Assembly (NCBI GenBank): GCA_013360595.1 | Contig: JABWBJ010000003.1 | Span: 1-32,929 of the forward strand | Length of the DNA: 32,929 nt | Origin: Gemmatimonadaceae bacterium | GTDB lineage: Bacteria > Gemmatimonadota > Gemmatimonadetes > Gemmatimonadales > Gemmatimonadaceae | Direction: 5' to 3' | Shown here: one piece after another, positions 5,058 through 27,601 of the stretch | How the letters are laid out: each line of letters begins with the position of its first letter | Numbering within the stretch: the first letter of the stretch is position 1 | Made by a program: the position numbers and the translations under genes | The notes under the pieces: generated by a model | What the model saw: only the letters and a program-made list of their open reading frames with translations | What the model was told of the DNA's origin: nothing | The model's database searches: none

Positions 5058-5063
5058 TCGGTG

Positions 5064-5096: not shown

Positions 5097-5176
5097 ACCT
5101 CCTGACGTGAATGCCCGGCGATACGCGGAGAGGCGCGAAGGGGAATGGTCCCCTTCCCGGCGCGAGGGGCATTCCG

Positions 5177-5583: not shown

Positions 5584-5676
5584 TTCCGGTCGTTCACGGA
5601 ACCCGCCAACCGGCCCGCTGGCCGACCGGAAGGCGGGAAGTCAAGAGGCCAAGGTCAGCGAGGATGAGTGAGACCT

Positions 5677-6297: not shown

Positions 6298-6368
6298 ATC
6301 AGCGCCTGGCTCGACAAGGCATTGGCCGGGGGACATCAACAAAACTGGTACATACACGGGAGGTAGTG

Positions 6369-9087: not shown

Positions 9088-9300
9088 AAAGTTGCCCCCA
9101 GTTGGACCGGTTGCCAGAGAACTATTCGGGAACTCTTCACCCCCGCGGGGTGAAAAGTTGGAGCGGCGAAAAGGGCAGGAAAATAAAGGAAAAACAACAA
9201 CTCTCTCTAACTATTCTACTTTTCACTCCGGCCCCCTCGCGCCACCCTTTTCCTGCCCGTATGCGCGTGTATGCGAGGGGGGGTGAAAAGTGAAAAGTTG
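9077..9300. repeat. Iteron-like repeat cluster, candidate origin of replication
   Basis: The 18-mer GTGAARAGTGAAAAGTTG occurs at 9077-9094 and 9283-9300 (one base different), each containing two overlapping units GTGAA(A/G)AG. A single unit, GTGAAAAGTTG, lies at 9150-9160. An inverted unit lies at 9218-9226 (ACTTTTCAC), and another inverted variant inside the hairpin at 9131-9141. The area between contains an A-rich tract (about 9178-9200) and a pyrimidine tract (9201-9224), unusual in this GC-rich DNA. Repeats, an AT-rich stretch and the position directly behind a primase-helicase gene are the classical makeup of an iteron-controlled origin; the assignment is inference. It is not a CRISPR array: units are short and spacers irregular. 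Confidence 0.65.
9131..9159. other. Hairpin in the iteron region
   Basis: AACTCTTCACCCC (9131-9143) and GGGGTGAAAAGTT (9147-9159) form a 13-bp stem with one mismatch around CGC. It incorporates two iteron units in opposite orientation. It may act as terminator of the primase gene, as part of the origin, or both. Confidence 0.55.
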
Positions 9301-9319
9301 CGAAAAGGATGGTTTACGC

Positions 9320-9685
9320 ATGGATGCACGGTGCTTCGATTGCCGGTTCTTCTGTCCCGGTGACTACAAGATGGTAGACGACCTGACGGAGCAGGATTGG
9401 GACGAAGGCCTCGAAGGTGAATGTCGCCGGAATCCGCCCTGCGTCGGGCGGTTTCGCGGGGAGGATGAACACCTCCAGTACGACTATGGGCAGTGGCCTC
9501 TCGTCCAAGCCGTCAACTGGTGCGGCGCATTTGAGCCGTGCCGCAGGGCGCTAAGTCTCAACGACGGACTCACGCGCACCCTGGGTCCAGATCGTGTTGT
9601 GGACAGCAAGGTTGCCGATGATCCGAATCCGTCGCCGCGACCTGCCGCGGATCAGCAGGACATCGCCACGACGGAGGAGACGTGA
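9320..9685 (+). CDS. Cysteine-rich small protein, 121 aa
   Basis: ATG 9320 (MDARCFDCRFF) was chosen, with AAAAGGA about 12 bases upstream. GTG 9290 would add ten residues, but its codons coincide with the last iteron. Cysteines are arranged as C-x2-C-x3-C, then 'ECRRNPPC', then 'WCGAFEPC', with 'WPLV' before the last group. I recall small phage and plasmid proteins with this 'C..C / RxPP / WP.V / WCGxF' plan and suspect zinc or iron-sulfur binding; the function is unknown. The last 40 residues are polar and probably disordered. No regulator motif is evident. Confidence 0.65.
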   Translation: MDARCFDCRFFCPGDYKMVDDLTEQDWDEGLEGECRRNPPCVGRFRGEDEHLQYDYGQWPLVQAVNWCGAFEPCRRALSLNDGLTRTLGPDRVVDSKVADDPNPSPRPAADQQDIATTEET

Positions 9686-9820
9686 ACCGCGCCATCTGTG
9701 CCCTTGATGGCATGGGTCCTACCAGGGCCAAGCGGCCGCCGAGGCCCGCGGAACCCACCACAAAACCCATTTGAGTTTATTTGTTGAAGCGCCGCATAGG
9801 TGGATGGGAGACACAAACGC

Positions 9821-10381
9821 ATGGAAACACAAGTAAAAGACCTCCCGATCAACCGCGACCGCAAGTTGACCGCCCCTGCGGCGCTGGACCGCCTGCTGGA
9901 CATGATGAAGCGGTGGTGGGAAGGCGAGAGCTTGGCCGATATTGCCCGCGCCTACGGCATCAGCCGCCAGCGGGTCGGGAGCATTCTGGCCAAGGTCGGC
10001 TGTACCGCCGCCCTTCGGCGCATGACAGACCAAGAGCGGCCCGATTCCAGCCGGCGTGGATGGCGGCACGGCATGGAAAAGGCGCGGAAGGCACTACTCC
10101 ATCCCTTGGCCCACCGCCTCACCGTTCGCCAGCGGGCAGCCCTGGCTTGGCAAGCCCAGAGCCTGGCGCTGCCGGATATCGCCCGGCGGATGCGGGCTAC
10201 CTCGCAGAATGTTCGTGGCCTTCAAGTGGCGGGGCATTGGCGGCTGGAGCGGCTGACCAAGCGGGAGATGCCGAACGACAGCATCGACATCGGGATGATC
10301 GAATGGGGCGAGGTCGCGCGATGGCCTGAAACGAACCCTGACCGGACCAACGCCTCCACAACGGAGGCGTTGGCGAAGTGA
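9821..10381 (+). CDS. Regulator with two sigma-region-4-like HTH motifs, 186 aa
   Basis: ATG 9821 (METQVKDLPINRDRK) was preferred over 9800; GGGAG lies about 11 bases upstream. The first HTH is at about residues 30-60: 'RWWEGESLADIARAYGISRQ' followed by 'RVGSILAKVG'. A second is at about 103-137: 'LTVRQRAALAWQAQSLALPD' followed by 'IARRMRATSQNVRGL'. Both have the sigma-70 region 4/LuxR-like 'I-A-----S---V' spacing, and the second begins with the 'LT-RQR' typical of that fold. This suggests a DNA-binding regulator of the element rather than a full sigma factor, since no region 2 is present. It is convergent with the second HARE-HTH gene, 11 bp apart. Confidence 0.7.
   Translation: METQVKDLPINRDRKLTAPAALDRLLDMMKRWWEGESLADIARAYGISRQRVGSILAKVGCTAALRRMTDQERPDSSRRGWRHGMEKARKALLHPLAHRLTVRQRAALAWQAQSLALPDIARRMRATSQNVRGLQVAGHWRLERLTKREMPNDSIDIGMIEWGEVARWPETNPDRTNASTTEALAK
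10347..10373. terminator. Hairpin between convergent genes
   Basis: CCAACGCCTCC (10347-10357) and GGAGGCGTTGG (10363-10373) form a perfect 11-bp stem with loop acaac, inside the last codons of the two-HTH gene and about 20 bp past the stop of the opposing HARE-HTH gene. There is no T run. The stem shares CAACGCCTC with the hairpin at 3412-3438. Confidence 0.6.
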
Positions 10382-10392
10382 TTGAGACGTCT

Positions 10393-10761
10393 CTAAGTGT
10401 TGAATTGGAACAGCCCGCGGTCAGTCTTCTTGAACCGGGCGGCGCTGCCCTTGTCCCGCGCCTCGCGGAGCATTCCGGCGTACAACGTGGCCCAAGGGGT
10501 CGCGCCTGCGGGGCTCCGCCACAGGCCCCGCTTCGCCAGCGCGGCGATCAGTTCCTGGGCGTGCATGGGCTTACCGGCCTTCTTCAAGACCGTCGCGGCG
10601 GCGTCAAGAGCGCTGACGCGCTTCGGCTTCGTCTCGCCGGCGGGCTTCTTCACCTTGGTCACCGTGGCGCTGGCTTTGGTCTTGGGCGTCGCCGCTTTGG
10701 TTTTGCCGACCGCCGCCTTGGCGGCGGTCTTCTTCGTCTTCGTTTTCTTCTTCGCGCTCAT
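10393..10761 (-). CDS. HARE-HTH protein, second copy, 122 aa
   Basis: ATG 10761 has a strong GCAGGAGG site. Residues 1-45 are a Lys/Ala-rich tail (MSAKKKTKTKKTAAKAAVGK and onward) like those of histone-like nucleoid proteins. Residues about 48-122 are the HARE-HTH winged helix (SALDAAATVLKKAGKPMHAQ ... FKKTDRGLFQF). It is closely similar, also at DNA level, to the last 118 residues of the protein encoded at 2039-2914. The frame stays open upstream of the ATG through the conserved IPFAELALM leader, so a longer product is possible. It is divergent from the serine recombinase, with which it shares a 187-bp promoter region. Confidence 0.82.
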   Translation of the reverse strand: MSAKKKTKTKKTAAKAAVGKTKAATPKTKASATVTKVKKPAGETKPKRVSALDAAATVLKKAGKPMHAQELIAALAKRGLWRSPAGATPWATLYAGMLREARDKGSAARFKKTDRGLFQFNT

Positions 10762-10782
10762 GGTTCGCCTCCTGCGGTACGT

Positions 10783-10802
10783 TTCTGCGGCGTCCACGCG
10801 AC
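10783..10802 (-). promoter_or_regulatory. Leader motif GTCGCGTGGACGC, copy 2
   Basis: 19 of 20 bases match 1992-2011. Its first bases also form the perfect palindrome ACGCGACGTCGCGT with the adjoining sequence. It lies 22 bases before the HARE-HTH ATG. Confidence 0.5.
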
Positions 10803-10818
10803 GTCGCGTTGTCAGCCC

Positions 10819-10869
10819 CATGAGGGCGAGTTCGGCGAACGGGATCAAGCGAATCTTGCCGGAATTCCG
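10819..10869 (-). repeat. Conserved 38-bp leader, copy 2, with GGAATTCC palindrome
   Basis: The minus strand of 10,819-10,856 matches 1425-1462 at 36 of 38 bases. Upstream of it CGGAATTCCG (10,860-10,869) corresponds to the AATTCCG/CGGAATT palindrome at 1403-1418. The peptide reading IRLIPFAELALM is in frame with MSAKKK at 10,761. Being in the divergent intergenic region, it could influence both the HARE-HTH gene and the recombinase. Confidence 0.6.
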
Positions 10870-10948
10870 CAGAAAAATGTGGCCCCAGCGGCCTTGACTT
10901 GGAGGGACCCTTGAGGGAAGGGAGTGGTCAGTGACGGAAGGACGAAAC

Positions 10949-12904
10949 ATGCATGCGAACGCCAAGGTGCCCGCCGTGGCCTACCTGCGAAGGTCAACCG
11001 ACCGGCAGGAACAAAGCATCGGCGACCAGCGGGCCGCCGTTCGTCGCTGGGCCGATGAGCACGGATATGAAATCGCCCGCGAATTCATCGATGATTCAAT
11101 CAGCGGGACTTCGGCGGACGAGCGCCCGGCCTTTCAGAACATGATCGCCGACGCGCAGCGTGGCGAGTTCAAGGCGGTGATCGTCTGGAACTCGGACCGG
11201 TTCTCGCGTGGCGACATCACTGAAACGGAATACCACCGCTACCTTCTTCGCAAGGCCGGCGTGGTGGTGCTGTCGGTCACCGAGGACTTCTTGGGCCGCG
11301 ACGGAATCGACGGCGATGTGCTGCGAACGGTCAGACAATTCCAGAATCGTCAATTCTCGGTTTCGTTGGCGCAGAATACGTTGCGCGGCCAGCTCAGCGC
11401 GGTGATGGCGAAATCGGACCCCGGCCGCGCTCCGCCTTTCGGCTACGACCGCGAGGTCGCTGCGCCAGACGGCTCGGTCATGTTCCGCATCCGCTTCTGT
11501 CCCGGCCGCGTGCGCGAGGTCTACGACAAGGACAGCAAGCTCCAGGCCTGCTACGCCAAGGGGCAATCGCTGAAGAAGCCGGGCAAACAGTGCCGGGCGC
11601 GGCTGGTGCTCTCCGACCCGCAGCGCGTGCAGGTCGTCAAGGACATCTTCCGCATGTGCCTGGACGGCGTGGGCTTCGCCTCCATCGCCGCCGACCTGAA
11701 TGCCCGCGGCATTCCCGCGCCCTGTCAGGACCATTGGAACTTCACGACGGTCAAGGCGATTCTTGAGAACCCGACGTATTGCGGCTGCCTTGTATGGAAC
11801 CGCCGGACCGAGGCGAAGTTCTTCAGGCTCCAGAACGGCCGGACCGAAGAGCGTCGGCGGCAGGCCAGCGAGGCCAAGGTGGTCAAGACGCCGAAGGCGG
11901 ATTGGATCGTCATCCCAGATTCGGTGCCCGCGATCATTCCGAAAGAGGATTGGGAGAAAGTCCAGGTGCTTGTGGCCAAGCGCCGGCGGGCGGTCGGCGG
12001 AGCCGGGCATCGCAATCGCCGCTGGCTGCTGACAGGCGTGATGGTCTGTGGCGACTGCGGCCACAAGTTCTGGGGCGCGCCCTGCCACAAGGGCCGCATC
12101 GAAGGCAGGGCTGCGGTCGTCACCAATTACTACAAGTGCGCCGGCCGAGGCTCACATGGCAAGACCATCTGCGCGACGCCATCGACCCTTCGCGCCGAGC
12201 CGTTGGAATCCTGGGTGCTGGGCAAGCTCCAGAAGATCGTCCTGGCCGACGAGGAGGCGCTTGACGAGGCCATCGAGCTGTTCGTCGAGCAGGCGGCGCG
12301 GAGGGATCACGGCGCCACCGACGCCGACCGGATCGCCCGCGAAATCAAGGAGGTCGGCGATCTGGTGACGGCGCTGACCATGAACATTGACGTGGCGAAC
12401 TTGTCGCTGCTCAACGATCGGCTGACGCAACTGCGGCTTCGCAAGGAATGCCTGGAACGCGAGCTGAACCTGGCCCGGCAGGAAAAGAGTCATCCCAATG
12501 TCGGTACGTTGCGGACGTGGGCGCGAAACCAACTGGCCGGCCTCCACGACGCGATGGCCGGCACGCGCAACGATCGGACGCGCGACGTGATGGGAACATA
12601 CGTGGATCGGATCATCGTCTGGCCATCGCAACGCCGAGGCGAGTTGCGCTTGAACCCCGCCGCCGCGCCGCTCTGGAAACAGCACGACCGCCCCGAAGGA
12701 CGGTCGCGTAATAACCCAATCGGGGCGACAGGACTCGAACCTGCGACCTTCTGCACCCCATGCAGACGCGCTAGCCAGACTGCGCCACGCCCCGGATTCT
12801 CCGCAACTATAGCCCGTGATCGGTCATGTAACAAGCTCGGGGGGCGAGGGACGCTGGATCGTTGCAGCGCGTCGCCGGCGGCGAGCGTCAATCCCGCTCG
12901 CTGA
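10949..12904 (+). CDS. Large serine recombinase (integrase), 3' end fused to host DNA
   Basis: ATG 10949 (MHANAKVPAVAYLRRSTDRQ) is preceded by GGAAGG. Residues about 8-150 are the resolvase domain: Y-L-R-R-S16 gives the catalytic serine, followed by 'DDSISGT' and 'WNSDRFSR'. Then come a recombinase domain (about 215-320, 'GVGFASIAADLNARGIP', 'ILENPTYCG'), a zinc ribbon ('MVCGDCGHKF' to 'KTICATPS', about 360-410) and a coiled coil (about 450-510). The natural C-terminus seems to lie near 'RIIVWPSQRRGELRLNP' (codons to about 12,660). The remaining 75-80 residues translate the tRNA-Pro terminator and the antisense of the tRNA ('GATGLEPATF', a familiar artefact) and have no protein-like character. 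It is likely responsible for integrating and excising this element, with the attachment site at or near its own 3' end. Confidence 0.9.
   Translation: MHANAKVPAVAYLRRSTDRQEQSIGDQRAAVRRWADEHGYEIAREFIDDSISGTSADERPAFQNMIADAQRGEFKAVIVWNSDRFSRGDITETEYHRYLLRKAGVVVLSVTEDFLGRDGIDGDVLRTVRQFQNRQFSVSLAQNTLRGQLSAVMAKSDPGRAPPFGYDREVAAPDGSVMFRIRFCPGRVREVYDKDSKLQACYAKGQSLKKPGKQCRARLVLSDPQRVQVVKDIFRMCLDGVGFASIAADLNARGIPAPCQDHWNFTTVKAILENPTYCGCLVWNRRTEAKFFRLQNGRTEERRRQASEAKVVKTPKADWIVIPDSVPAIIPKEDWEKVQVLVAKRRRAVGGAGHRNRRWLLTGVMVCGDCGHKFWGAPCHKGRIEGRAAVVTNYYKCAGRGSHGKTICATPSTLRAEPLESWVLGKLQKIVLADEEALDEAIELFVEQAARRDHGATDADRIAREIKEVGDLVTALTMNIDVANLSLLNDRLTQLRLRKECLERELNLARQEKSHPNVGTLRTWARNQLAGLHDAMAGTRNDRTRDVMGTYVDRIIVWPSQRRGELRLNPAAAPLWKQHDRPEGRSRNNPIGATGLEPATFCTPCRRASQTAPRPGFSATIARDRSCNKLGGRGTLDRCSASPAASVNPAR
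12685..12706 (-). terminator. Terminator hairpin of tRNA-Pro
   Basis: On the minus strand CGACCGTCC-TTCG-GGGCGGTCG is a 9-bp stem (one wobble) closed by a UUCG tetraloop, 14 bases after the tRNA 3' end. On the plus strand it lies inside the apparent recombinase frame, which argues that host sequence begins left of 12,685. Confidence 0.75.
12720..12794 (-). tRNA. tRNA-Pro (anticodon GGG)
   Basis: The full cloverleaf can be drawn on the minus strand. The acceptor stem CGGGGCG/CGCCCCG has 7 of 7 pairs with discriminator A (12,720). The D arm is GCGC...GCGC. The anticodon stem TCTGC/GCAGA encloses loop ATGGGGT (T33, GGG anticodon, G37). The T arm is GCAGG-TTCGAGT-CCTGT. The C1 start and GGG anticodon identify proline. 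No CCA is encoded. The gene is intact and directly abuts the integrated element. Confidence 0.96.
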
Positions 12905-13277
12905 CGCCTGCCCCCGCGAAGGCACGGAGCTTCGCGGCTCTGAATGACGCGCCGGTCGCGCCGATCGGATTCGCACGGGCTGGAACTCCGCGGCGCCGGG
13001 AGCCGTGCGATTGGCGACGGGCGGGATGCCCGTACCACCCGGAAACAGCCGGGGGACGCTGGGCCGCATCACTCATGCCCCGGGGCCACTCCCGGGGGAG
13101 CGACACGGCGTCACCGCCGAGGGCGGCTGTGCTAGATTTTCAGCCGGGGCCGGACTTGGCATCTATGGAACGCGGGCAAGCACGTGGCGGATGGATCCCG
13201 CTCGCTGACGCTTCGCGGCTCTGAATCGCACGGGCTGCAAGCCCGTGCCACGCGGACACAGCCGGGGGCGGCCAGGC
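12891..13277. repeat. Two copies of a palindromic interspersed repeat
   Basis: The gap between the tRNA and the desulfurase gene holds no gene. 'ATCCCGCTCGCTGACGC' followed by 'TTCGCGGCTCTGAAT' and 'CGCACGGGCTG' occurs in a longer, interrupted copy from 12,891 and a compact copy from 13,195. Each copy ends in a hairpin: ACGGGC-gggat-GCCCGT (13,017-13,033) and GCACGGGC-tgcaa-GCCCGTGC (13,228-13,248). In both a CCAC...ACAGCCGGGGG tail follows. Such 'CGGGC...GCCCG' units are, as far as I recall, frequent in planctomycete intergenic DNA, like REP or MITE-type repeats. Confidence 0.65.
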
Positions 13278-13284
13278 TACAGGG

Positions 13285-14457
13285 CTATCGCGGCGCGACG
13301 GCGGCGCTGACCTGCGACAATGCATCCAGGGCGCGATCGACGTCGCACTCGGTGTTGAACGCGCCGAAGCTCAGGCGCGTCGCGCCGCCCGTCTGGTGCG
13401 TACCGAAGGTCGCGTGCGCCAGCGGGGCGCAGTGGATGCCGCCGCGGGTCAGCAGGCCGAACTCGCCCTCCAGCAGCGCGGCCAGCTCCGACGGCTCGTA
13501 TCCGCCGACGCGAACGCTGAACACCGCCACGCGTTGCGACGGATCGCCCGGACCCAGCACCGTCACGTCGGGCATGTCACGCACACCGTCGAGGAATCGC
13601 ACCGACAGCGCACGATCGTGCGCCGCCAGCGACTCCACGCCGCGATCCAGTATCCACTCGACCGCCGCCGCTAGACCCGCCAGCCCGATGGCGTTGTGAC
13701 TGCCGCTCTCGTATCGGTCGGGCATGAACGACGGATGCGTCGCCTCCTCGCTGACCGAGCCGGTGCCGCCCTGCTTGAGCGGCCGGATGCGCGGCTCGAT
13801 GCCGCGCCGCACGTACAGTCCGCCGGTGCCCAGCGGCCCGAGCAACCCCTTGTGCCCGGGAAACGCCAGCAGGTCGATGCTCATGCCGCGCACGTCGATG
13901 GGCAGATGGCCGGCGGTCTGCGCGGCGTCGACGAGAAAGAGTATGTCGCGCGAGCGGGCGGTGCGGCCGATGTCGGCAATCGGCGCAATCGCGCCCGAAA
14001 CGTTGCCGGCGTGATGCAAAACGACCAGCCTCGTATTCGGCCGAATCGCGCCGATCACGTCATCGGCGCGAATCAGTCCGGTGTGCTGATCGGCCGGCAC
14101 GAGCGTGTGCGACACGCCGGTCGCTTCCAGCGCTTTCAGCGGGCGCAGCACCGAGTTGTGGTCCATGCGGCTGGCGACGACATGATCGCCGGGCCGCACG
14201 GCGCCCTGAATCGCCAGGTTGAGCATGTCGGTGCAGTTGAGGCCAAAGACGATCTGCTCGGGCGCTTCGGCGTTGAACAGCCGCGCCAGCAGCCGGCGGC
14301 AACGCGAGACGATCTCGCCGGTTTCCAGGGCTTCGCGATAGGCGCCACGTCCGGCCGATGCGCCCAGCCGTTCGGCGTAATCGCGCATGGCGTCGAAGAC
14401 GGCGGGGGGTTTGGGGAAGCTGGTGGCGGCGTTGTCGAGATACAGGCGGTCGCGCAT
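13285..14457 (-). CDS. Cysteine desulfurase family protein (class V aminotransferase, TIGR01977 type)
   Basis: ATG 14457 (MRDRLYLDNAATSFPKP) puts the 'YLDNAATS' motif where this family has it; ATG 14490 is an alternative. The 390 residues show the PLP fold of SufS/NifS relatives: 'HNSVLRPL', 'VLHHAGNVSGAI', 'FLVDAAQTAGH', the PLP lysine K203 in 'FPGHKGLLGPLGTG', and the persulfide-forming cysteine C343 in 'RGGIHCAPLAH'. The enzyme would move sulfur from cysteine to a carrier for Fe-S cluster, thiolation or selenium metabolism. The length fits the family (about 380). It is divergent from the glycosylase gene, with no suf or isc genes nearby, so the acceptor is unknown. Confidence 0.9.
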   Translation of the reverse strand: MRDRLYLDNAATSFPKPPAVFDAMRDYAERLGASAGRGAYREALETGEIVSRCRRLLARLFNAEAPEQIVFGLNCTDMLNLAIQGAVRPGDHVVASRMDHNSVLRPLKALEATGVSHTLVPADQHTGLIRADDVIGAIRPNTRLVVLHHAGNVSGAIAPIADIGRTARSRDILFLVDAAQTAGHLPIDVRGMSIDLLAFPGHKGLLGPLGTGGLYVRRGIEPRIRPLKQGGTGSVSEEATHPSFMPDRYESGSHNAIGLAGLAAAVEWILDRGVESLAAHDRALSVRFLDGVRDMPDVTVLGPGDPSQRVAVFSVRVGGYEPSELAALLEGEFGLLTRGGIHCAPLAHATFGTHQTGGATRLSFGAFNTECDVDRALDALSQVSAAVAPR

Positions 14458-14587
14458 GGGGTTGGTCCGTCGTAGTGGTTCAGCCGTCATTATAGGCGAT
14501 CCGGGCGGCACTCCCGCCATCGAGCATCGAGGCCAACGGAACCGTTCTCGCGTGGAAAAACAAGCTGATTTGCGGTATGAACACGTG

Positions 14588-15145
14588 ATGCCGACACGTA
14601 GCCGTAACACGCGCGGCGCTGCGCCGCCGCAGCTCGACGATCCGCGCCGCTGCCGCTGGGCGCGCGGCGATGCGCTGCTGGCGGACTATCACGATCGCGA
14701 ATGGGGCCGGCCGATCGACGGCGACGCCGGGCATCTGGAGCGCATGGCGCTCGAAATATTTCAGTGCGGCCTGTCGTGGAAGATTGTCCTGGTGAAGCGG
14801 CCGGCGCTGCGCGAGGCGTTCGAGGGCTTCGACGTGGCGAGTCTCGCAAAGTGGGGCGATCCGCACATAGCGCGGGTCATGACGCATCCGGGGGTGATCC
14901 GCAATCGCCGCAAGATTCAGGCCGTGCTCGACAACGCGCGGGCCTTTGCCGCGCTGGCCGAGGAACACGGCGGCTACGTGCGCTGGTTCGAGCGCCTGGA
15001 TGTCTCATCGCCCACCCGGCGGCGCGAGGTGTTTACGGAGTTCCGCGAGCGGTTCCGATTCATGGGGCCGGAAACGACCAAGTGCTATCTCTGGGGCACG
15101 GGCAAGATCGCGCCGCCGCACGAACGTCGCTGCTGGCTGTTTTGA
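14588..15145 (+). CDS. tag: DNA-3-methyladenine glycosylase I
   Basis: ATG 14588 (MPTRSRNTRGAAPPQLDD). The 185-aa protein starts its domain with 'RCRWARGDALLADYHDREWG', the Tag signature with the zinc ligands Cys and His of the N-terminus, and ends in 'PPHERRC', giving the His-x3-Cys that completes the zinc snap in E. coli Tag. Between them lie 'LERMALEIFQCGLSW' (base-flipping region, usually QAGLSW, here QCGLSW) and 'VIRNRRKIQAVLDNARAF'. The enzyme removes 3-methyladenine from alkylated DNA. No strong ribosome site is visible. It shares a 130-bp promoter region with the divergent desulfurase. Confidence 0.92.
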   Translation: MPTRSRNTRGAAPPQLDDPRRCRWARGDALLADYHDREWGRPIDGDAGHLERMALEIFQCGLSWKIVLVKRPALREAFEGFDVASLAKWGDPHIARVMTHPGVIRNRRKIQAVLDNARAFAALAEEHGGYVRWFERLDVSSPTRRREVFTEFRERFRFMGPETTKCYLWGTGKIAPPHERRCWLF

Positions 15146-15205
15146 CCGACGCGCGCCGGATGCCTACGCTTTGAATGGGGCGGCGGAGGCAAGCAGAAGG
15201 TAATC

Positions 15206-18154
15206 GTGCCCATGCCGCACATCAGAATGCGATCCGTCCCGTCTGCATTGTGCATCGCGTTCGCCGCCGGCGCGGCGCGTGGACAGGACGCTCCACCGCC
15301 CGATGCGTCACGCGATCCGGCCGCCACCTATCTCAACGAACGCCTGGCCGCCTATGAAGAACTGGACCGCGCCCGGCAGCTCGTCGATCGCGGCGAATGG
15401 GACCAGGCGGCGCAGCGATTTCAGTCGATCGTCGACAACCACGGCGACACGCTCATGCGCCGCGGCGCCGCGCCAGCGTCGCGACCGAGGAGCGACGATC
15501 TGGAGGGGTTCGTCAATCTGCCGGAGCGCGTCTTCGCCGAATTGATCGAAGGACCTCCAAGGCTGCTGGCCGAATATCTCCGTCGCTACGAAGCGACCGC
15601 CCGCGACGCCATCCGCCGCGAATCGGCCGAACAAATCGGCGTGCCTGCATCCGCATGGCGCTATTTTCCCACCGCCGCCGCGGCCGATGCCATCGAAGCC
15701 GCGGCCGATCGACTGATGGAGGCCGGCCGCCTGGCGGCGGCCGCGCGGCTGTATCGGCGACTGGCATCGTCGCATCCGCTGCGGGCGGCGCGTGAGTGGA
15801 ACTGGCAGGCCAAGCTGGCGTTGTGTGAGAGCTTGTGTGGGCGGCGAGATGCGCTCGACGCGCTGAAGGTCCGCCTGGCCGCGTCCGATCCCGCGCCGAC
15901 GGTGACGTGGGGCGGCAAGCAGCAGCCCTTACAGGCGTTTCTCGAGCAATTCGTCAGCGCTGCGCCGACGCCGAAGCCGTCGGTGACGCTCGGCCGGCAC
16001 CCCTTCGGCGGCGATTCCGACGGCCGCATTTCCCTCGCCGAAACGCCGGCAGCCCAGGCGACGCTGTGGCGATGCGCGTACGAGCGCCGCAAGCCCGGCA
16101 CTTCCGCCGATACGTGGGACGACGATGATCAGCCGCTCGACGACGCGACGCGCCGCACTCTGCGGTCGGGACGGCAGCTTTCGTCGTTGCCGCTGGCGGC
16201 CGACGGACTGATCGTGCTGGCGAACGGCCGCGACGTGTGGGCGGTCGATCCGGAATCGCCGGAATCTGCCGTGTGGCGTTTTGCGCGGCCGGTCGAAGCC
16301 GACGTCGAACTGGCCGAAGATCGCTGGTTCATCCAGGACGAGGCGGTTCCGCTGAACACGGTGACGCTGGGCAATGGCGTCGTGTTCGCCGCCATCGAGC
16401 GCTCCGACGACGACGCCGACACGCACGCGCGCGGCGATCCGGACGCGGCGCGGCTGGTGTGCCTCGACCTGCGCACCGGTCGATGCATCTGGCGCAACAC
16501 GCTGGACGAGCTGTCGAATCCGTTCGAGGAATGCCGGCTGGATGGCGCGCCGCTGGTGCTCGACGATCGCGTCGTCGCGGTGGTGCGGCGCCGCAAGCCC
16601 TTCGGCTTCGAGGCGTGCCTGCTGGCCTGCTTCGACGCCGCGACGGGCCGGTTGCTGTGGCGGACGCACCTGGGCGAAGCGGCGACCGGCGGCTACGGCT
16701 ACCACAAGCCGACGCAGTCGTTTCCCACGGCGATCGACGGGCGCATCTTCATTCACACGAACATCGGCACGATGGCCGCGGTCGACGCCGAGGACGGCCG
16801 CGTGGCGTGGCTGTGGCGATATCCGACGGCGTACGGTCGGGCGGCGTCGGACTTCGCGGCCGGCCGGCCGGAGCGCGCCTGCCGCGCGTGGCACTACACG
16901 TCGGCGATGATCTGGGGCGATCGCGTCGTATTCGCGCCGCTGGACGCGAGCGAGGCGTTCGTGTTCGCGCAGGATGATGGTGCGCCGGCGGAGCGAGTAG
17001 CCTACGAGCGGCTACGCCAGCCGCAGTCGTTTCTCGGCGTCGCGGGCGACCGCTTGTATTGCGTCGGCACGCGCATCGTGTGCTTCGACCTGGCCGCGCG
17101 CGAGATCGCCTGGGAGCGTCCGTTGGCCGACGGCAGCCTGCTGGGGCGCGGCGCGCTGACCGCCGACGCGGCGCTGATTCCGACCGACGTCGGGCTGTTG
17201 CGCTATCCGCTTGACGGCGGCGCCCCCGTGACACATGCCTGGTCGCCGCGCGCCGCCGGAAACGTCGCCGCTGCGGCCGGGCGCATTCTCGTTGCATCGG
17301 GTCAGTCGGTCTTCGAACTGGGCGACAAGGAGGCCGCCTGGGCGCGGCTGTCGAGCCGCGCGGCGGATCGCCCAACCGATCCGCGTCCGCTGCTCTCGCT
17401 GGCGGAGCTGGCGTTCGAGACGTCGGATTACGAGCGCGGCCTGGCGTCGCTCGATCAGGCGATGGAGCGCGGCCGGGCCGCACACGGCGCCGTGGATGAC
17501 GCGACGCGGGCGCGGGTGTATGGCCTGTGCCTGCGTTATGCGCAGCGTCTGCATCGCACGGCCCAGAGCGCGCGGGCCGCGCCGGACGAAGAACTCGACT
17601 GGGCACACGGCATGTTGGACCGCGCCGGCATGTGCGCGCCCGATGAAGACGCCCACGTGAGTTTCAGACTATTGCGCTCCGAATTGTTCCTGGCCGCCGG
17701 CCGACCCGCCGACGCCGTGGATGCCTATCAGCAGATCCTCACCGATCCCGCGCTGGCGCGACGCACGCTGACGACCGAGCGCAGCGGCGAAATCACCGCC
17801 GGCGGCTTCGCGCGCGACCGCATCGCGCGGCTGATCTTTGAGCACGGCCGCGCGGTGTACGCCAACGTCGAACAAAAGGCCGAGGAACGCCTGCGCATCG
17901 CCTGGGCCGAGCGCAACGCCGACGGGCTGCTGTCCGTCGCCGAGCGATATCCCAACAGCGCCGCCGCGCCGCAGGCGCTGACGCGCGTCTTCACGACCCG
18001 CGGCCCGGGCCGCGCCGAACCTTCCCTGGTCCGGCGCGACCTGGCCGGACTCAGGCCTCGGGCTGTGGTACGATGCGGATGTAGGGCCGCGGCGCTTCCC
18101 AGCCGTTCGGGTAGATCTTCTTCGCCTCGTCGTCGGACACCGAGCCGGCGATGA
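15206..18154 (+). CDS. Exported PQQ-propeller/TPR protein, 3' end lost
   Basis: GTG 15206 has AGAAGG 6 bases upstream; ATG 15212 is possible. A signal peptide (SVPSALCIAFAAGAARGQDA) precedes TPR-like helices (about 40-230). A PQQ-type beta-propeller (about 330-710) shows repeats such as 'LVCLDLRTGRCIWRNTLDEL', 'LLACFDAATGRLLWRTHLGE' and 'MAAVDAEDGRVAWLWRYP'. Further TPR helices (about 725-930) follow. This plan is common in planctomycete secreted proteins of unknown function. Meaningful sequence ends at about 17,985 ('RYPNSAAAPQAL'). The last 55 or so residues are an Arg/Ser-rich translation of the antisense of the neighbouring peroxiredoxin gene and its hairpin. The real gene therefore continued elsewhere, and the stop at 18,154 is accidental. 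Confidence 0.8.
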   Translation: MPMPHIRMRSVPSALCIAFAAGAARGQDAPPPDASRDPAATYLNERLAAYEELDRARQLVDRGEWDQAAQRFQSIVDNHGDTLMRRGAAPASRPRSDDLEGFVNLPERVFAELIEGPPRLLAEYLRRYEATARDAIRRESAEQIGVPASAWRYFPTAAAADAIEAAADRLMEAGRLAAAARLYRRLASSHPLRAAREWNWQAKLALCESLCGRRDALDALKVRLAASDPAPTVTWGGKQQPLQAFLEQFVSAAPTPKPSVTLGRHPFGGDSDGRISLAETPAAQATLWRCAYERRKPGTSADTWDDDDQPLDDATRRTLRSGRQLSSLPLAADGLIVLANGRDVWAVDPESPESAVWRFARPVEADVELAEDRWFIQDEAVPLNTVTLGNGVVFAAIERSDDDADTHARGDPDAARLVCLDLRTGRCIWRNTLDELSNPFEECRLDGAPLVLDDRVVAVVRRRKPFGFEACLLACFDAATGRLLWRTHLGEAATGGYGYHKPTQSFPTAIDGRIFIHTNIGTMAAVDAEDGRVAWLWRYPTAYGRAASDFAAGRPERACRAWHYTSAMIWGDRVVFAPLDASEAFVFAQDDGAPAERVAYERLRQPQSFLGVAGDRLYCVGTRIVCFDLAAREIAWERPLADGSLLGRGALTADAALIPTDVGLLRYPLDGGAPVTHAWSPRAAGNVAAAAGRILVASGQSVFELGDKEAAWARLSSRAADRPTDPRPLLSLAELAFETSDYERGLASLDQAMERGRAAHGAVDDATRARVYGLCLRYAQRLHRTAQSARAAPDEELDWAHGMLDRAGMCAPDEDAHVSFRLLRSELFLAAGRPADAVDAYQQILTDPALARRTLTTERSGEITAGGFARDRIARLIFEHGRAVYANVEQKAEERLRIAWAERNADGLLSVAERYPNSAAAPQALTRVFTTRGPGRAEPSLVRRDLAGLRPRAVVRCGCRAAALPSRSGRSSSPRRRTPSRR
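18025..18055 (-). terminator. Hairpin at the end of the peroxiredoxin gene
   Basis: CCTG-GTCCGGC (18,025-18,035) pairs with GCCGGAC-t-CAGG (18,044-18,055), an 11-bp stem with one bulged base, overlapping the peroxiredoxin stop codon. No T run. To its left a 16-bp perfect palindrome, CGCGGCCCGGGCCGCG, spans 17,999-18,014. Confidence 0.5.
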
Positions 18155-18713
18155 TGACCTTCTCGCCCTGCTTCCAGTTGACGGGCGTGGACACCCGGTG
18201 CCTTGCCGTGAGCTGCAGCGAGTCGATCACCCGCAGCACCTCGTCGAAGTTGCGCCCCGTGGTCATCGGGTAGACCAGGATCGTCTTGATCTTCCGGTCG
18301 GGGCCGATGATGAACACGTTGCGCACCGTCTGGTTGTCGGCCGGCGTGCGCACGAGCGGGTCGCCGGACACGCTGGCGGGGAGCATCCCGTACAGCTTGG
18401 AGACCTTGAAGTCGTCGTCGCCGATCATCGGGTAGTTCGGCGCCGTCCCCTGGGTGTCGCGAATATCGTCCGCCCACTTGGCGTGCCGGTCGATGGGATC
18501 CACCGAGAGCCCGATGATCTTCACGCCCCGCTTGTCGAACTCCGGCTTGATCCGCGCCATGTACCCGAGCTCGGTCGTGCAGACCGGGGTGAAGTCCTTG
18601 GGATGCGAGAAGAGAACGCACCACGAGTCCCCGATCCATTCGTGGAAGCGGATCGTGCCTTCGGTGGTCTTCGCCTCGAAGTCAGGGGCGATGTCGCCCA
18701 GAGCCAGCGTCAT
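18051..18713 (-). CDS. 1-Cys peroxiredoxin (Prdx6/AhpC-TSA type), 220 aa
   Basis: ATG 18713 is preceded by GGAGGAAGG. 'FTPVCTTE' contains the peroxidatic C45. The only other cysteine is C32, and no C-terminal resolving cysteine exists, while a long C-terminal domain ('HRVSTPVNWKQGEKVIIAGS', 'YPNGWEAPRPYIRIVPQP') is present. Both features and the 220-aa length define the Prdx6-like 1-Cys subfamily, which reduces hydrogen peroxide and organic hydroperoxides with an external thiol. It is divergent from the helicase gene. Its 3' end faces the suspected junction at about 18,000. Confidence 0.95.
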   Translation of the reverse strand: MTLALGDIAPDFEAKTTEGTIRFHEWIGDSWCVLFSHPKDFTPVCTTELGYMARIKPEFDKRGVKIIGLSVDPIDRHAKWADDIRDTQGTAPNYPMIGDDDFKVSKLYGMLPASVSGDPLVRTPADNQTVRNVFIIGPDRKIKTILVYPMTTGRNFDEVLRVIDSLQLTARHRVSTPVNWKQGEKVIIAGSVSDDEAKKIYPNGWEAPRPYIRIVPQPEA

Positions 18714-18818
18714 GGCCTTCCTCCAGTGGCTGAGGGGTGGACCAACGAAGCTCACCGGCCGGCGCCCGCGGGTCAAGTCGCCCCCGCCGTCACAGTCCCC
18801 GCGTACCTTTCCGCCGGG

Positions 18819-21728
18819 ATGCCCTTCACGCCAACGCCCTCACAGCGCGCCGCCATCGAGGCAGACCTCGGTCCGGCGCTCGTGCTCGCCGGTCCGGGGG
18901 CCGGGAAGACGTTCTGCCTCATCGAACGGATCCGGCACCTGATCGAAGTGAAGCGCATGGATCCCGAACGGATCCACGCCTTCACCTTCACCAACAAGGC
19001 GGCCGAGGAGATCGGGTCGCGCCTCGATGACCTCGGCGAGAAGGCGCATCTCGTCAGGCGGGGGACGATCCATGCCTTCTGCGCCGATCTGCTGCGCCAG
19101 CACGGGCATCACGAAGGGCTCGAGCGGGGCTTCGGAATCGCCGACGAGCACTACCAGCAGTCGGTCCTCTCGCGGCTTGGCCAGCCGGCGCGATTCCACG
19201 CCGCCATCCTCAAGTCGTTCACGCTCCACCGGCTCCGGGGATTCGAGCTGAGCGAGCGCGATGCCCGAACGTACGCCGAGTACGTGCAGCGGCTTGCGCG
19301 CAGGAACATGGCCGACTTCGACATGCTGGTGGTGAAGGCGGCCCACCTGCTGGAGTCCGTGCCCGAGGTCGCGCGTGAGGTACGCTCGCGCTGGGACTGC
19401 ATCCTCGTGGACGAGTTCCAGGATCTGAATCCCCGCCAGTACGAGGTGGTACGGGCGCTGGCCCGGGAGCACCGCAACGTCTTCGCCGTCGGGGACGACG
19501 AACAGTCCATCTTCTCGTGGACCGGCGCCGACCTGACGCTCTTCGCCGCGCTGCAGAACGACTTCGGCATCGTGAGGGCCATCACGCTGCGCGACAACCA
19601 CCGGTGTCCGAGTCAGATCTTCGATCGGGCGCGGGCGCTGGTGCGGCGGAATCCGGCGGGTCTGTGGACGAAGGAGGAGATCGTCGCCACGCACGAGACG
19701 CCGCATCCGGTCCGCGCCCTCAACTTCGGCGACGACCTGCACGAGGCGGACTGGCTCCTCGAGGATCTGCGCGCGGACCGGGAACGGCATGGCCTGCGCT
19801 GGGGCGATTACGCCGTGCTCTACCGCCGGCACGAGATCGGCGATGCGCTGGAGGCAACGCTGATCGGTGCCGGCGTCCCCTGCCGGCTGGCCCAGGGCCG
19901 CGCGGTGGCCGACGATCCGGTCATCGCCTACGCGGTGGCCGCGCTCAAGGTCATTGCCGACCCCGCCGACGACGCGCACCAGGAGGCGTTTCTGCGGGTC
20001 GTCCTGCCGCCCAGCCTGCTCGACCTGCTGCGAACGAAAGTGGAGGCGGGCGTCGACGGGCTCCGCGCGCAGATGGAGGCGCATGCCCGATCACTGCCGC
20101 GGCGCGCGCCCGGCGCGTCGAAGCTGTGGCGCGCGCTGTTCGCCCTGAGGAACCTGGAGTCGCTCGGACGGAAGCACGACGACCTCACCGCCCTGGTGGA
20201 GGAACTGCTGTCGCAGCGCGTGGGGGTGTATCGGACGATGCTGGAGGAGCGGCACGAGGACCTGTCCGATCCGGCGAACCATCCGGAGGTCGTGCAGCTC
20301 GCCGACCGGCTCGGCGCCGCCCTCGACGCGGGGCGGATGGTCTGGGTGGAGCCGATGGCGGGGCTCGAGATCCCGCTGCGGGCCATGCTGCACGGCATCG
20401 GGTTCACGCGATTCGGGGTCGGCCCCTCGCCGCCTGACGACGCCGAGCCGGTGCGCGCCGGTGATGTCCCGACCCTGGGGATCGCGCTCGGCCTGTTCAA
20501 GGTGCTGCAGCTCGTGGCGACCCGGCGCGAGGCGCCCTTCGGCGACTTCGTGGCCGTGGACATCGAAACCACGGGCCGCGACGTGGAGCGGGCCGAGGTC
20601 GTGGACCTGGCGGCGGTGCGCGTGCGGAACGGCCAGGTGGTGGACGAGTGGTCCTCGCTGGTGAAGCCGCGCGTGCCGATCCACGCCGCGGCGGCGGCAG
20701 TCACCGGGATCACGGAGGCGATGGTTGCCGGCAAGCCGCACTTCGAGGACGTGTGGCCGGGCTTTCGAGACTTCTGTGGCGACGACGTCGTGGTGGCCCA
20801 CAACGGGTACCGGTTCGACTTCCCCATCCTCGAGCGGATGAGCGCCCCGCTCGGTGGATACCGGTTCACGACGTACGACACGCTGGTGCTGGCCCGCGAG
20901 CTGCATCCCGGGAGCCGCAAGCTCCACGATCTGGCGGTCCGGTTCGGCGTGGACACCGGGCACGAGCACCGCGCGCTCGACGATTCGCGGGCACTGGCCC
21001 GCGTCTTCCTGCGCCTGGATGCCGAACGCGTGACGCGGTCGCGCAAGACCGCGCTGGCGAACCTGCTGGACCAGCTCGGGATCGCCCTCGCGCTCTGGTC
21101 GGCGCCTGACGAGAGCGCGGAGGCGAAGATGCTGCGGCAGGCGGCCGCGATCTACGCGCTCGGCCGGTACAGCGACGCCCTGGAGCACTACCGGGCGCAG
21201 CGGGAGCTGGCCGGCGACCCCGCGATTCCCACCGCGGACGACCTCATCGAGCGGCTGGGCGGGAAGGGACTGATGGAGCGGTTGCGCGCCGAGAAGACGG
21301 CCGATGAGCGGTATCCACAGGCGATGGCCCGGTTGCGCCGGCTTCTGCAGCGGTGCGAGGCGCCGACGCTCGACGGCCAGGTCCGTGAGTTCCTCGAGCT
21401 GGTGGCGCTCTCGAAGCATGATGGGAGCACGGTGCACCAGGATCGGGTGAGCCTGCTGACGCTGCACTCCACGAAGGGGCTGGAGTTCTCGCGCGTGTAC
21501 ATCGTGGGCGTGGAGGACGCCGAGATCCCCGGCGGGACGCAGCACAAGCCGGCGATGAAGGCCGAGATCGAGGAGGGGCGCCGGCTGCTCTACGTCGGGA
21601 TGACGCGCGCGAAGGACCGCCTGGTGATGACGCGCGCCGCGAAGCGGAACGACCTGCCCACGGGCGGGACGCAGTTCCTGAGCGAGATGGGGCTCACGCC
21701 GGAGCCGGTGACCTCCCGCCGGGCGTGA
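18819..21728 (+). CDS. UvrD-type helicase with an internal DEDDh exonuclease domain, 969 aa
   Basis: ATG 18819 (MPFTPTPSQRAAIEADLGPA) starts just before the Q motif; no strong ribosome site is visible. Helicase motifs: Walker A G25-PGAGK-T31, 'TFTNKAAEEI', DEFQD at 198-202, 'GDDEQSIFSWTGAD' and 'LRDNHRCPSQIF' in the first part; 'LTLHSTKGLEFSRVYI' and 'EEGRRLLYVGMTRAKDRL' near the end. Between them, residues about 575-735 form a DnaQ-like 3'-5' exonuclease with D581/E583 ('DIETTG'), D667 ('YRFDFPIL') and H717/D722 ('HRALDD'), a complete DEDDh set. One chain thus combines unwinding and proofreading-type nuclease activity, suited to repair or end resection. No nuclease subunit of AddAB or RecBCD type is nearby. 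Confidence 0.9.
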   Translation: MPFTPTPSQRAAIEADLGPALVLAGPGAGKTFCLIERIRHLIEVKRMDPERIHAFTFTNKAAEEIGSRLDDLGEKAHLVRRGTIHAFCADLLRQHGHHEGLERGFGIADEHYQQSVLSRLGQPARFHAAILKSFTLHRLRGFELSERDARTYAEYVQRLARRNMADFDMLVVKAAHLLESVPEVAREVRSRWDCILVDEFQDLNPRQYEVVRALAREHRNVFAVGDDEQSIFSWTGADLTLFAALQNDFGIVRAITLRDNHRCPSQIFDRARALVRRNPAGLWTKEEIVATHETPHPVRALNFGDDLHEADWLLEDLRADRERHGLRWGDYAVLYRRHEIGDALEATLIGAGVPCRLAQGRAVADDPVIAYAVAALKVIADPADDAHQEAFLRVVLPPSLLDLLRTKVEAGVDGLRAQMEAHARSLPRRAPGASKLWRALFALRNLESLGRKHDDLTALVEELLSQRVGVYRTMLEERHEDLSDPANHPEVVQLADRLGAALDAGRMVWVEPMAGLEIPLRAMLHGIGFTRFGVGPSPPDDAEPVRAGDVPTLGIALGLFKVLQLVATRREAPFGDFVAVDIETTGRDVERAEVVDLAAVRVRNGQVVDEWSSLVKPRVPIHAAAAAVTGITEAMVAGKPHFEDVWPGFRDFCGDDVVVAHNGYRFDFPILERMSAPLGGYRFTTYDTLVLARELHPGSRKLHDLAVRFGVDTGHEHRALDDSRALARVFLRLDAERVTRSRKTALANLLDQLGIALALWSAPDESAEAKMLRQAAAIYALGRYSDALEHYRAQRELAGDPAIPTADDLIERLGGKGLMERLRAEKTADERYPQAMARLRRLLQRCEAPTLDGQVREFLELVALSKHDGSTVHQDRVSLLTLHSTKGLEFSRVYIVGVEDAEIPGGTQHKPAMKAEIEEGRRLLYVGMTRAKDRLVMTRAAKRNDLPTGGTQFLSEMGLTPEPVTSRRA

Positions 21729-21965
21729 CTGCCGCGATTCCGGGAGGCGTTCGGGCCAACGTGGACCGAGCCTGATGGGATCAGGGACAGGAAGTCTGCT
21801 CCATGATCCCGAGGATCGGATACAGTGACACGAAATCTTCGGTGCGCGAACGGGCACGAGCCGCGGGACGTGTCCGCAGCCCGGCCAGGGCCGCTACGGC
21901 GCGGCGAATCGGAAAGCGGGCCGGACGACCGCGCCGGCCAGCGGTATCCGGCCAGTGAGGCGACG

Positions 21966-23294
21966 TCAGCGACGCTGTATCCGGAAGATCGCCACCGTCT
22001 GAACGTCCAGGCTGTCGCGCTGCACGACGACGACCCGGTCACCGCGGACATCCTCGAGACGGGTGAGCGCCGGCAGCCTCAGCGTGGCGACGGGGGCCCC
22101 GTCGGCTTCGAGAATCGTCCAGCGATCGCCGGGCGTCTGGAGCGCCGTGCCGAGGCGGACCGGCTCGAACCGCTCCGCCCAGAGACGCCCGTCGGCGCCT
22201 GCGAACACCCGGCCGATGGCCGGCCGCTCGTCAGGCAGGATCTCGGGCGCGAACGACTGGTTGAGCGCCGTCCGTGGCCCGGGAGGCACGTTCTGCTGCA
22301 CCAGGAGCCGGTCCAGTTCCGCCTTGAGGCGGGCGATCTCCCCGGGCTCCAGCGGCTCCGACTGCGCCGGCCATCGAATGATGCCAGCCGGCCGGAACGC
22401 CGTGTCGAGGGACGTGATCTCGAAGACCGACCCCGATCCGAAATGGACGCGATCCCGCGAAACGGCAACGAAGGGCCGGTTCGCGAACGGAAGCCGCACG
22501 TCTCCATTCTCGACGAGGCCCGAATACGGACCGTCGAAGCGCGCCGACTCGATGAGCGTTCTGCCGCTCGTGTCCCGCAGGGCAAGCTGCGCCCGCGTGG
22601 GCCAGCGGCGAACGCCCGATCCGGCGGGCACGGAATCCAGCGGTACAAGAGACAGCTGGAACACGACGACGGCGCCGCGCCACAGCCACGCGTCCGCCGG
22701 CCACGAATCGAACGAACCGTCGCCGGCGAGGTTCATGCTCCGAACGAGTCCCGTGTCCGGATGCCAGACCGACAGTCGCCGCTGCCGCGGGTCGAACGTG
22801 GTCAGCGTGTCGCCCGGCCATACCGCGAGGCCGTCGAGTCTGCGGAACTCCCCGGGTCCATCGCCTCGCCGTCCCAGCGTCCGGACCAGCCGGCCACCGG
22901 CGTCAAAGACCAGCAGGCGCTGCGAGCCCGCATCGGCCACGACCAGTCCGCCGTTCGACAGCCACCGGACCGGACCGACCTGCGCGAACGCCGTCGAGTC
23001 GCCGGTCTCGGCGCCGTTCAGGACCAGCTCGGCTGTCGGCGCCAGCGTCCAGATCCGAAGCGAGGACGGCGGCAGGCCGATGGTCGCGATCCGCACTCCT
23101 GCCGAGTCGACGACCCTGACTGATGCGCCACCCGTCGTGTCGCTCGTGCAGCCGCCCGGCACGGCGAGGATCGCCGCGATGGCGATGGTCCTGAGGCTGA
23201 TCCAGTCCTCGCGCCACGCCCTCGGTGGCGATGACGGACACCGATCCCGGACTCCCCCCGTGCCCGCCGTGCCCCGCGTGCCCCCCGCGCTCAA
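21966..23294 (-). CDS. 6-bladed beta-propeller lipoprotein, hypothetical
   Basis: The frame opens with TTG 23294, and no better start is available before the signal sequence, so the true start is uncertain and may lie nearer 'SLRTIAIAAILAVPGGC' (lipobox cysteine at about residue 49). The mature part begins 'VRVVDSAGVRIATIGLP', an opening I associate with Gemmatimonadota propeller proteins. It continues with NHL-like blades ('GGLVVADAGSQRLLVFDAGG', 'RRGDGPGEFRRLDGLAVWPG', 'TTFDPRQRRLSVWHP'). The role is unknown; it is probably anchored to a membrane and exposed to the periplasm. It starts within 4 bp of the DUF72 stop, in the same direction. Confidence 0.7.
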   Translation of the reverse strand: MSAGGTRGTAGTGGVRDRCPSSPPRAWREDWISLRTIAIAAILAVPGGCTSDTTGGASVRVVDSAGVRIATIGLPPSSLRIWTLAPTAELVLNGAETGDSTAFAQVGPVRWLSNGGLVVADAGSQRLLVFDAGGRLVRTLGRRGDGPGEFRRLDGLAVWPGDTLTTFDPRQRRLSVWHPDTGLVRSMNLAGDGSFDSWPADAWLWRGAVVVFQLSLVPLDSVPAGSGVRRWPTRAQLALRDTSGRTLIESARFDGPYSGLVENGDVRLPFANRPFVAVSRDRVHFGSGSVFEITSLDTAFRPAGIIRWPAQSEPLEPGEIARLKAELDRLLVQQNVPPGPRTALNQSFAPEILPDERPAIGRVFAGADGRLWAERFEPVRLGTALQTPGDRWTILEADGAPVATLRLPALTRLEDVRGDRVVVVQRDSLDVQTVAIFRIQRR

Positions 23295-23998
23295 TGGTCC
23301 GCCAGGAGCCGGAGGAACGCATCGACGGCTGGCGGGCCCGAGCCGACGCCCTCATCGTGCTTGAAGTAGACATACGCCTCCGACCACGCCTGCTCCCGGA
23401 TGCGCGCCGCCCAGTCGCCTAACGCCCTGGCGTCATAGTCGAACCGGTGCAGACGGACGTACCCCCAGGACGCGCTCGCAACGGGCGGGGTGGCGAAGTC
23501 CTCCTGGTCGATGATCGTGAGCGCCACGTCCTTCGCCCGCAGCGCCTCGACCACGTCCTCCTCGAACCAGCTGGAGTGGCGGAACTCCACGGTGAACTTC
23601 CGGCCGTCCGGGAGCAGTTCGAGGAAGGCCTTCAACCGGTCGAGGTCCTTCTTCAGGTTCGGCGGCAGCTGGAAGAGCACCGGCCCGAGCTTCGCCCCCA
23701 GCGCCGCGGTGTTCTTCAGCAGGTAGCCGACCAGGTCGGCGGACTCGGGCTTGAGCCGCGCGTGGTGGGTGATTCGCTGGCTCGCCTTGAGCGCGAAGGT
23801 GAACCCGTCCGGCACCTGCGACGCCCACTCGAGGATCACGTTCTCGCGCGGCATCCGGTAGAACGTGTTGTTGATCTCCACCGTCGGGTACCGCGTGGCG
23901 TAGAAGCCGAGCATCCCGTCGGGCTTGATGTCCTCGGGATAGAACGACCCCTTCCATTCCTTGAACGCGTAGCCGCTGGTGCCGGCCCGGATCCTCAC
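23291..23998 (-). CDS. DUF72 (YecE-like) protein, 235 aa
   Basis: GTG 23998 overlaps the Ku stop codon (GTGA), so the gene is translationally coupled to ku. The TIM-barrel family is recognised by 'RAGTSGYAFKEWKGSFYP' at the N-terminus, 'PTVEINNTFYRMP', 'FALKASQRITH', 'LFQLPPNLKKD', 'FTVEFRHSSWF' and 'YVYFKHD'. The biochemical role of DUF72 is not established; it often accompanies DNA repair genes. Coupling with Ku suggests a function in the same repair process, which is inference. Confidence 0.93.
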   Translation of the reverse strand: MRIRAGTSGYAFKEWKGSFYPEDIKPDGMLGFYATRYPTVEINNTFYRMPRENVILEWASQVPDGFTFALKASQRITHHARLKPESADLVGYLLKNTAALGAKLGPVLFQLPPNLKKDLDRLKAFLELLPDGRKFTVEFRHSSWFEEDVVEALRAKDVALTIIDQEDFATPPVASASWGYVRLHRFDYDARALGDWAARIREQAWSEAYVYFKHDEGVGSGPPAVDAFLRLLADH

Positions 23999-24801
23999 GA
24001 GGCCTTCCGTTCGGCTCCTTCCTCCGCGCCGCGCGCCAGGCTGGCCTTGAGGGCTTCCATGAGGTCGATGATCTTGCCGCCCCCGTCCTGCGCCGGCTCG
24101 GTCGTGATCTCGTGGCCGTCCACCTTGCCTTGGATGGCCTCGAGAACGCGGTCGCGCACCGTGTCCTTGTACTTGGCGGGCTCGAACGTGTCGGTCGCAC
24201 CCTGCTCGATGAGCTGCTTGGCCAGCTTGAGCTCGGTGTCCTTGACGTCGCCTTCGGGGATCGGCACCTCGGCGGGCGGCTTCATCTCGTCGGCGTAGTG
24301 GAGCTGCTCCATCACGATCACGCCGTCGCGCGGCCGCAGGAGGACCAGGTACTGCTGCCCGCGTGAGGCGAACTGCCCGAGCGCGGCGCGCCCGGTCTCC
24401 TGGAGCGCCTTGGCGAGAAGGCGATAGGCCCGGTCGCCGCCCTTGTCGGGGCCGAGGTAGTACACCTTCTCCAGGTACTCCCGGTCCACCTCGGCCAGGG
24501 GGACGAACTCGGCGATGTCGATCGTGCCGGTCGCCTTCTCCTCGAGCGCCTTCAGTTCGTCAGGCGTGAAGGTGACGTACTGGTCCTTGGCGAACTCGTA
24601 CCCCTTCACCATGTCCTCGCGGGGGACGATCTCGTTGTTGTCCTTCGGGCAGACGTACTGCTGTTTGACGCGCGTGCCGCACTTCCTGTGCAGCATGTTG
24701 AACGAGATCTGCGCGCGGGACTCGGCGGACGAGTAGATGTGCACCGGGACCGAGACGAGCCCGAAGGAGATGGTGGCGGTGCCGGTTGAGCGGGCGGGCA
24801 T
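23995..24801 (-). CDS. ku: Ku protein of bacterial non-homologous end joining, 268 aa
   Basis: ATG 24801 (MPARSTGTATISFGLVSVPV) is typical for the family start. 'RSTGTATISFGLVSVPVHIYSS', 'HRKCGTRVKQQYVCPKDN', 'EFVPLAEVDREYLEKVYYLGPDK', 'LRPRDGVIVMEQLHY' and 'KYKDTVRDRVLEAI' cover the complete homodimeric Ku core plus a short C-terminal tail ending in Ala/Lys/Glu residues. Ku binds double-strand ends and recruits LigD, encoded 2.8 kb away on the other strand. The length is normal (260-300). Its 5' region contains a short tandem repeat. Confidence 0.97.
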   Translation of the reverse strand: MPARSTGTATISFGLVSVPVHIYSSAESRAQISFNMLHRKCGTRVKQQYVCPKDNNEIVPREDMVKGYEFAKDQYVTFTPDELKALEEKATGTIDIAEFVPLAEVDREYLEKVYYLGPDKGGDRAYRLLAKALQETGRAALGQFASRGQQYLVLLRPRDGVIVMEQLHYADEMKPPAEVPIPEGDVKDTELKLAKQLIEQGATDTFEPAKYKDTVRDRVLEAIQGKVDGHEITTEPAQDGGGKIIDLMEALKASLARGAEEGAERKAS

Positions 24802-24808
24802 GGGTGGT

Positions 24809-24834
24809 GAGCGATGAGCGATGAGATGAGCGAT
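24809..24834. repeat. Short tandem repeat GAGCGAT upstream of ku
   Basis: Three copies of the heptamer GAGCGAT (24,809-24,815, 24,816-24,822, 24,828-24,834), interrupted once by GAGAT, lie 8 bp upstream of the ku start codon. Copy number could change and so alter the ribosome-site context. Confidence 0.7.
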
Positions 24835-24976
24835 GAGTCGTCGGACGGACGTGTCGCTGGGTGCGTATTCGTCTGAGCCTCACTCCGAAGGGCGGGCCGG
24901 CGCAAGGGGGTGAGAGCGCTTCGCCGTCGGCTGGTGCCGGCCCCGGCGGGTCGTGGCTCGTGCGCGAACCCGATCC

Positions 24977-26881: not shown

Positions 26882-26901
26882 GCGCCACGTCCTTCCGACC
26901 G

Positions 26902-27450: not shown

Positions 27451-27601
27451 ACGTTGGCCTCGGCGAGTACGCGTGAGCAAGGGAGCATCCCGCAACGTGC
27501 ACCAGCCGCCGCCGAGTTCCTTCATCCTGGCAACGCACCCCCGGTCACCGGAACGCAACCGCCGTCCTCGCGGTAACCCGTCCGTCCTCGCACTTTGCAG
27601 C

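Follow-up and report, generated by a model that had tools for sequence, protein, structure and literature searches.

A contig in a public Gemmatimonadota genome that is almost certainly an inter-species chimera of planctomycete and Gemmatimonadota DNA

Introduction

De Bruijn assemblers of metagenomes are known to produce chimeric contigs when genomes share k-mers (PMC7299287). The window analyzed here (the whole stretch of 32,929 nucleotides) resembles the inter-genomic chimeric contigs of short-read assemblies described there in two respects: each of its parts agrees with a different genome, and it joins unrelated genomes without a repeat, an integrase or a conserved gene. It differs from typical chimeric contigs (PMC7299287) in three ways: its planctomycete parent contig is publicly available and matches the left part exactly, the bin contains another joint at the same assembly hole, and k values can be inferred from the contig ends. 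The window is also like a genomic island or a horizontally transferred block in that its composition and gene repertoire change abruptly. Unlike a genomic island, however, it has a joint in mid-gene with no mobile-element boundary, zero donor divergence and an intact donor locus. The window makes up the entire contig C17 of bin G000 (3.07 Mb, 568 contigs, 72% complete, 1.4% contamination). Its features are listed in Table 1.

Table 1 Coordinates of the features discussed, in positions of the window.
Feature	Position	Strand	Remarks
Planctomycete block	1-17,986	.	Identical to WYBU01000067.1 from 20713 down to 2728, reversed
Contig-end repeat	1-98	.	Part of a multi-copy PLA4 element; present on several PLA4 contigs
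Likely integrated element	1000-13250		In the planctomycete part
Inverted repeat pair	1412-1468/10813-10869		88% over 57 bases
Inverted repeat pair	2643-2896/10402-10658		78% over 257 bases
Prim-Pol/DUF3987 primase	6,628-9,087
Large serine recombinase	10,931-12,904		ORF as called overlaps tRNA-Pro
tRNA-Pro(GGG)	12,720-12,794	-	Beside the element
Dispersed repeat	13108-13283		Copies of ~60-90 bases
PQQ/BamB-like beta-propeller + TPR gene, 5' part	15,206-17,986	+	Truncated by the breakpoint; ORF translation and PLA4 comparison
Inter-genome breakpoint, planctomycete/Gemmatimonadota	17,986..17,987	.	Base-by-base comparison with WYBU01000067.1
Gemmatimonadota block	17,987-32,929	.	Native to the host bin's lineage and not present in PLA4; synteny with genus-mate
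Perfect palindrome, 16 bp	17,999-18,014	.	CGCGGCCCGGGCCGCG
GC-rich hairpin	18,005-18,044	-	17-nt arms, 82% complementary; directly downstream of the Prx stop; single copy in bin
1-Cys-type peroxiredoxin (Prx)	18,051-18,713	-	Complete; 88% identical to genus-mate orthologue
UvrD-type helicase with exonuclease domain	18,819-21,728	+	Complete; adjoins Prx, as in genus-mate
Beta-propeller	21,966-23,294
Ku, DUF72, LigD neighbourhood	23291-30253		Bacterial NHEJ

Results

The left block is identical to a planctomycete contig and ends within a gene

The PQQ/TPR protein, used as a query against public genome contigs, returned a single locus, at 100% identity, on WYBU01000067.1 ("MAG: Planctomycetaceae bacterium isolate PLA4 k127_264065"). 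In an exact base-by-base comparison, positions 1-17,986 of the window showed no mismatch to this PLA4 contig, and the first mismatch was at 17,987. To the right of 17,986 the two sequences agreed no better than by chance, 756 of the following 1,008 positions being mismatched. A DNA search of the PLA4 genome matched positions 1-17,989 of the window as a single piece. The initial annotation had described an abrupt switch near 18,000, with the PQQ/TPR protein coherent to about 17,985 and planctomycete-like genes to its left; the comparison bears out both and places the switch at 17,986/17,987.

The breakpoint interrupts the PQQ/TPR gene without any biological boundary signal. In PLA4 the gene is intact across this point and ends at a TGA (L015 14,379-14,381); hence the PLA4 version is coherent and the C17 version is broken. 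In the window the frame continues antisense through the Prx gene until 18,154, in agreement with the run-on that had been read from the sequence at the outset. No att site, repeat, integrase or target duplication was found at 17,986 in the window sequence and the bin comparison. That the joint sequence might be a repeat within the bin was also considered and ruled out, since it is single copy in G000.

Composition differed between the two sides, as the tetranucleotide check proposed with the initial annotation was meant to reveal. When neighbouring 5-kb stretches were compared, their tetranucleotide distance peaked locally at 18,000 (0.341), and the tetranucleotide z-score correlations were 0.685 within the left part and 0.630 within the right part, compared with 0.30-0.46 between left and right. 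A bigger composition step in the window, at ~13,250, has planctomycete sequence on both sides and does not mark another inter-genome junction.

The right block is native to the genus of the host bin

Positions 17,981-32,929 had no counterpart in a search of PLA4, which gave just three short matches at 67-82%. A matching neighbourhood, with gene order kept, was present on contig C62 of the genus-mate G001, with identities of 88% for Prx, 90% for Ku, 78% for DUF72 and 73% for LigD. Among plasmid records, the best match of LigD was to Gemmatirosa kalamazoonensis (64%), and the next reached ~37%. The Gemmatimonadota-like character first ascribed to the right side thus holds, on genus-mate synteny and the Gemmatirosa-like LigD. 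The synteny is imperfect, since the beta-propeller did not match the ORF at the corresponding place in G001. The assignment of G000 to the phylum Gemmatimonadota rests on the Gemmatirosa-like LigD and on the gene content. Separately, the Gemmatimonadota neighbourhood of Ku, DUF72 and LigD is conserved with the genus-mate.

The native Gemmatimonadota flank downstream of Prx was sought in bin G000 and not found. As a candidate cause of the joint, a dispersed repeat downstream of Prx was rejected: the 56 matches of the genus-mate flank in the bin were mostly low-complexity CCCCAG repeat.

The palindrome that the initial annotation had set exactly at the switch does exist, but it starts 13 bases into the right block. 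The importance hinted at for it found no support, as the window contains three perfect 16-bp palindromes against ~1.7 expected under an order-1 model. By eye, the Prx stop of the genus-mate is likewise trailed by a GC-rich inverted sequence, for which reason the larger hairpin at 18,005-18,044 is probably the Prx gene's own terminator. Palindrome and hairpin were ruled out as the cause of the joint, being 13 bases off the breakpoint, within one parent and present in chance number.

A second chimeric joint lies on the other side of a 541-base hole

Of the 2,724 PLA4 bases beyond the breakpoint, bases 540-2,696 matched C120, another contig of G000 (5,168 bases), at 100%. Positions 3,012-5,168 of C120 are identical to PLA4, resuming at L015 13,324, 541 bases beyond the C17 breakpoint. 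At position 3012 of C120 (L040), a Gemmatimonadota FkbM gene, truncated at this joint, switches to the PLA4 PQQ/TPR gene. The genes in C120 1-3,011 are a PfkB-like kinase, a ROK glucokinase, a TauE-type exporter and the end of the FkbM methyltransferase; the PfkB-like kinase (no family match) and the TauE-type exporter were assigned by our own reading. ROK and TauE are adjacent, and their order is kept in contig C57 of G001, where TauE is 79% identical. A search of the bin showed that the 541-base stretch between the C17 and C120 joints is absent from G000. Since the two joints flank this hole, both of its sides are joined to Gemmatimonadota DNA. On the reverse strand, the sequence of the C120 joint, AAGEVPAPDVIKIDVEGAE, agrees with the conserved end of FkbM proteins; the first ~16 bases on the PLA4 side may therefore also be native FkbM, and the candidate stretch shared by the two genomes at this joint may be ~16-20 bases long.

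Contig ends point to two assemblies with different k

The PLA4 contig extends 28 bases beyond base 1 of the window and, at its opposite end, 28 bases beyond the end of C120. At the contig-end repeat, PLA4 contigs overlap by ~126 bases, and one contig begins with ~126 bases of the repeat. As 28 = 127-99 and 98 = 99-1, these lengths point to two de Bruijn assemblies with final k values of 127 and 99. Both look like de Bruijn assemblies of one community that end at identical repeats. We infer the value of 99 for G000 from the contig-end lengths, and that of 127 agrees with the k127 in the PLA4 contig name. The repeat itself looks like the end of a putative insertion sequence: the element begins GAGCCTATCCCAAAA, and what may be the start of a transposase, MDEECISEDWRIPD, comes next on the reverse strand.

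A proposed mis-assembly and its alternatives

The initial annotation had left a choice between a chimeric contig and a large rearrangement or transfer, and the PLA4 identity, the genus-mate synteny and C120 together select the former. We are highly confident that the assembler fused DNA of two species into the window contig, which was subsequently sorted into the Gemmatimonadota bin. Its two parts match two genomes, and the PLA4 parent is continuous through the breakpoint. We prefer this reading because of the absence of mismatches over 17,986 bases, the intact PLA4 gene, the native right half, the joint in C120, the 28-base contig ends and the composition break. In a de Bruijn assembly with k of about 99, the PQQ/TPR gene would have had a hole of ~541 bases; both planctomycete ends at this hole would then have been mis-joined, via short shared sequence, to low-coverage Gemmatimonadota ends, and the resulting chimeric contigs would have been binned with the Gemmatimonadota genome.

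The same two joints could also be produced by a very recent real transfer, in which a Gemmatimonadota segment entered the PQQ/TPR gene in part of the PLA4 population with a 541-base deletion. The orientations of C17 and C120 are compatible with the two ends of such an insert, and the gap would be the deletion. In the genus-mate, though, the two flanks are on separate contigs (Prx on C62, ~112 kb; ROK and TauE on C57, ~8 kb), so that the insert would exceed 100 kb if gene order were kept. Both flanks are furthermore ordinary chromosome, one of them cut within a gene, neither an integrase nor a repeat nor a target duplication marks position 17,986, and the PLA4 assembly holds only the uninterrupted gene. 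We therefore regard such an insertion as very improbable, and give equally little credence to a large and very recent exchange between planctomycete and Gemmatimonadota within one community, of which C17 and C120 would carry the two ends.

Transfer in the reverse direction, with a planctomycete segment of at least 18 kb integrated into a Gemmatimonadota chromosome, would account for the binning of the contig with Gemmatimonadota and could draw on the serine recombinase and tRNA gene carried by the left block. These two genes are 5 kb away from the joint, within planctomycete DNA, and the segment stops in mid-gene rather than at either of them. Its divergence from PLA4 is zero across 17,986 bases, and its other end is the place where the PLA4 assembly itself breaks, at a repeat of that genome. 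A search for PQQ/TPR homologues among 40 relatives of the host gave weak generic propeller matches only, and none in the genus-mate; nor was a PQQ insertion found in other members of the lineage, the genus-mate and the 39 other relatives lacking the PQQ protein apart from those weak generic matches. This absence also stands against acquisition by the host lineage, which we consider even less probable than the insertion into PLA4. Chimeric DNA formed by ligation or amplification during library preparation, rather than by the assembler, would be expected to give the same two-genome contig. Two joins beside one hole in one gene, however, point to an assembly gap and not to random ligation. Assembly contigs rarely follow single chimeric molecules, which again argues against an origin in the library, and we judge its chance to be as slight as that of the reverse transfer.

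Consequences for the public genome

With C17 and C120, this public Gemmatimonadota genome contains at least two part-planctomycete contigs (~20 kb) despite its estimated contamination of 1.4%. Studies of gene content or gene transfer that use G000 would report false inter-phylum transfers. As an assembly artefact, the junction would tell nothing on biology but flags a contaminated public genome. The PF07596 family is present in PLA4 and absent from bin G000, a weak negative for wider planctomycete contamination.

Element and repeats in the planctomycete part

The planctomycete part contains a likely integrated element, at whose right-hand limit, ~13,250, composition steps sharply. Besides the recombinase and the primase, it carries a HARE-HTH protein and several unknown ORFs. 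Two diverged inverted repeat pairs face each other across the element, and the 257-base repeat is found again, at 75-81%, on a further PLA4 contig. The short dispersed repeat near the composition step has dozens of copies in PLA4, some as inverted neighbours, and is a REP-like family.
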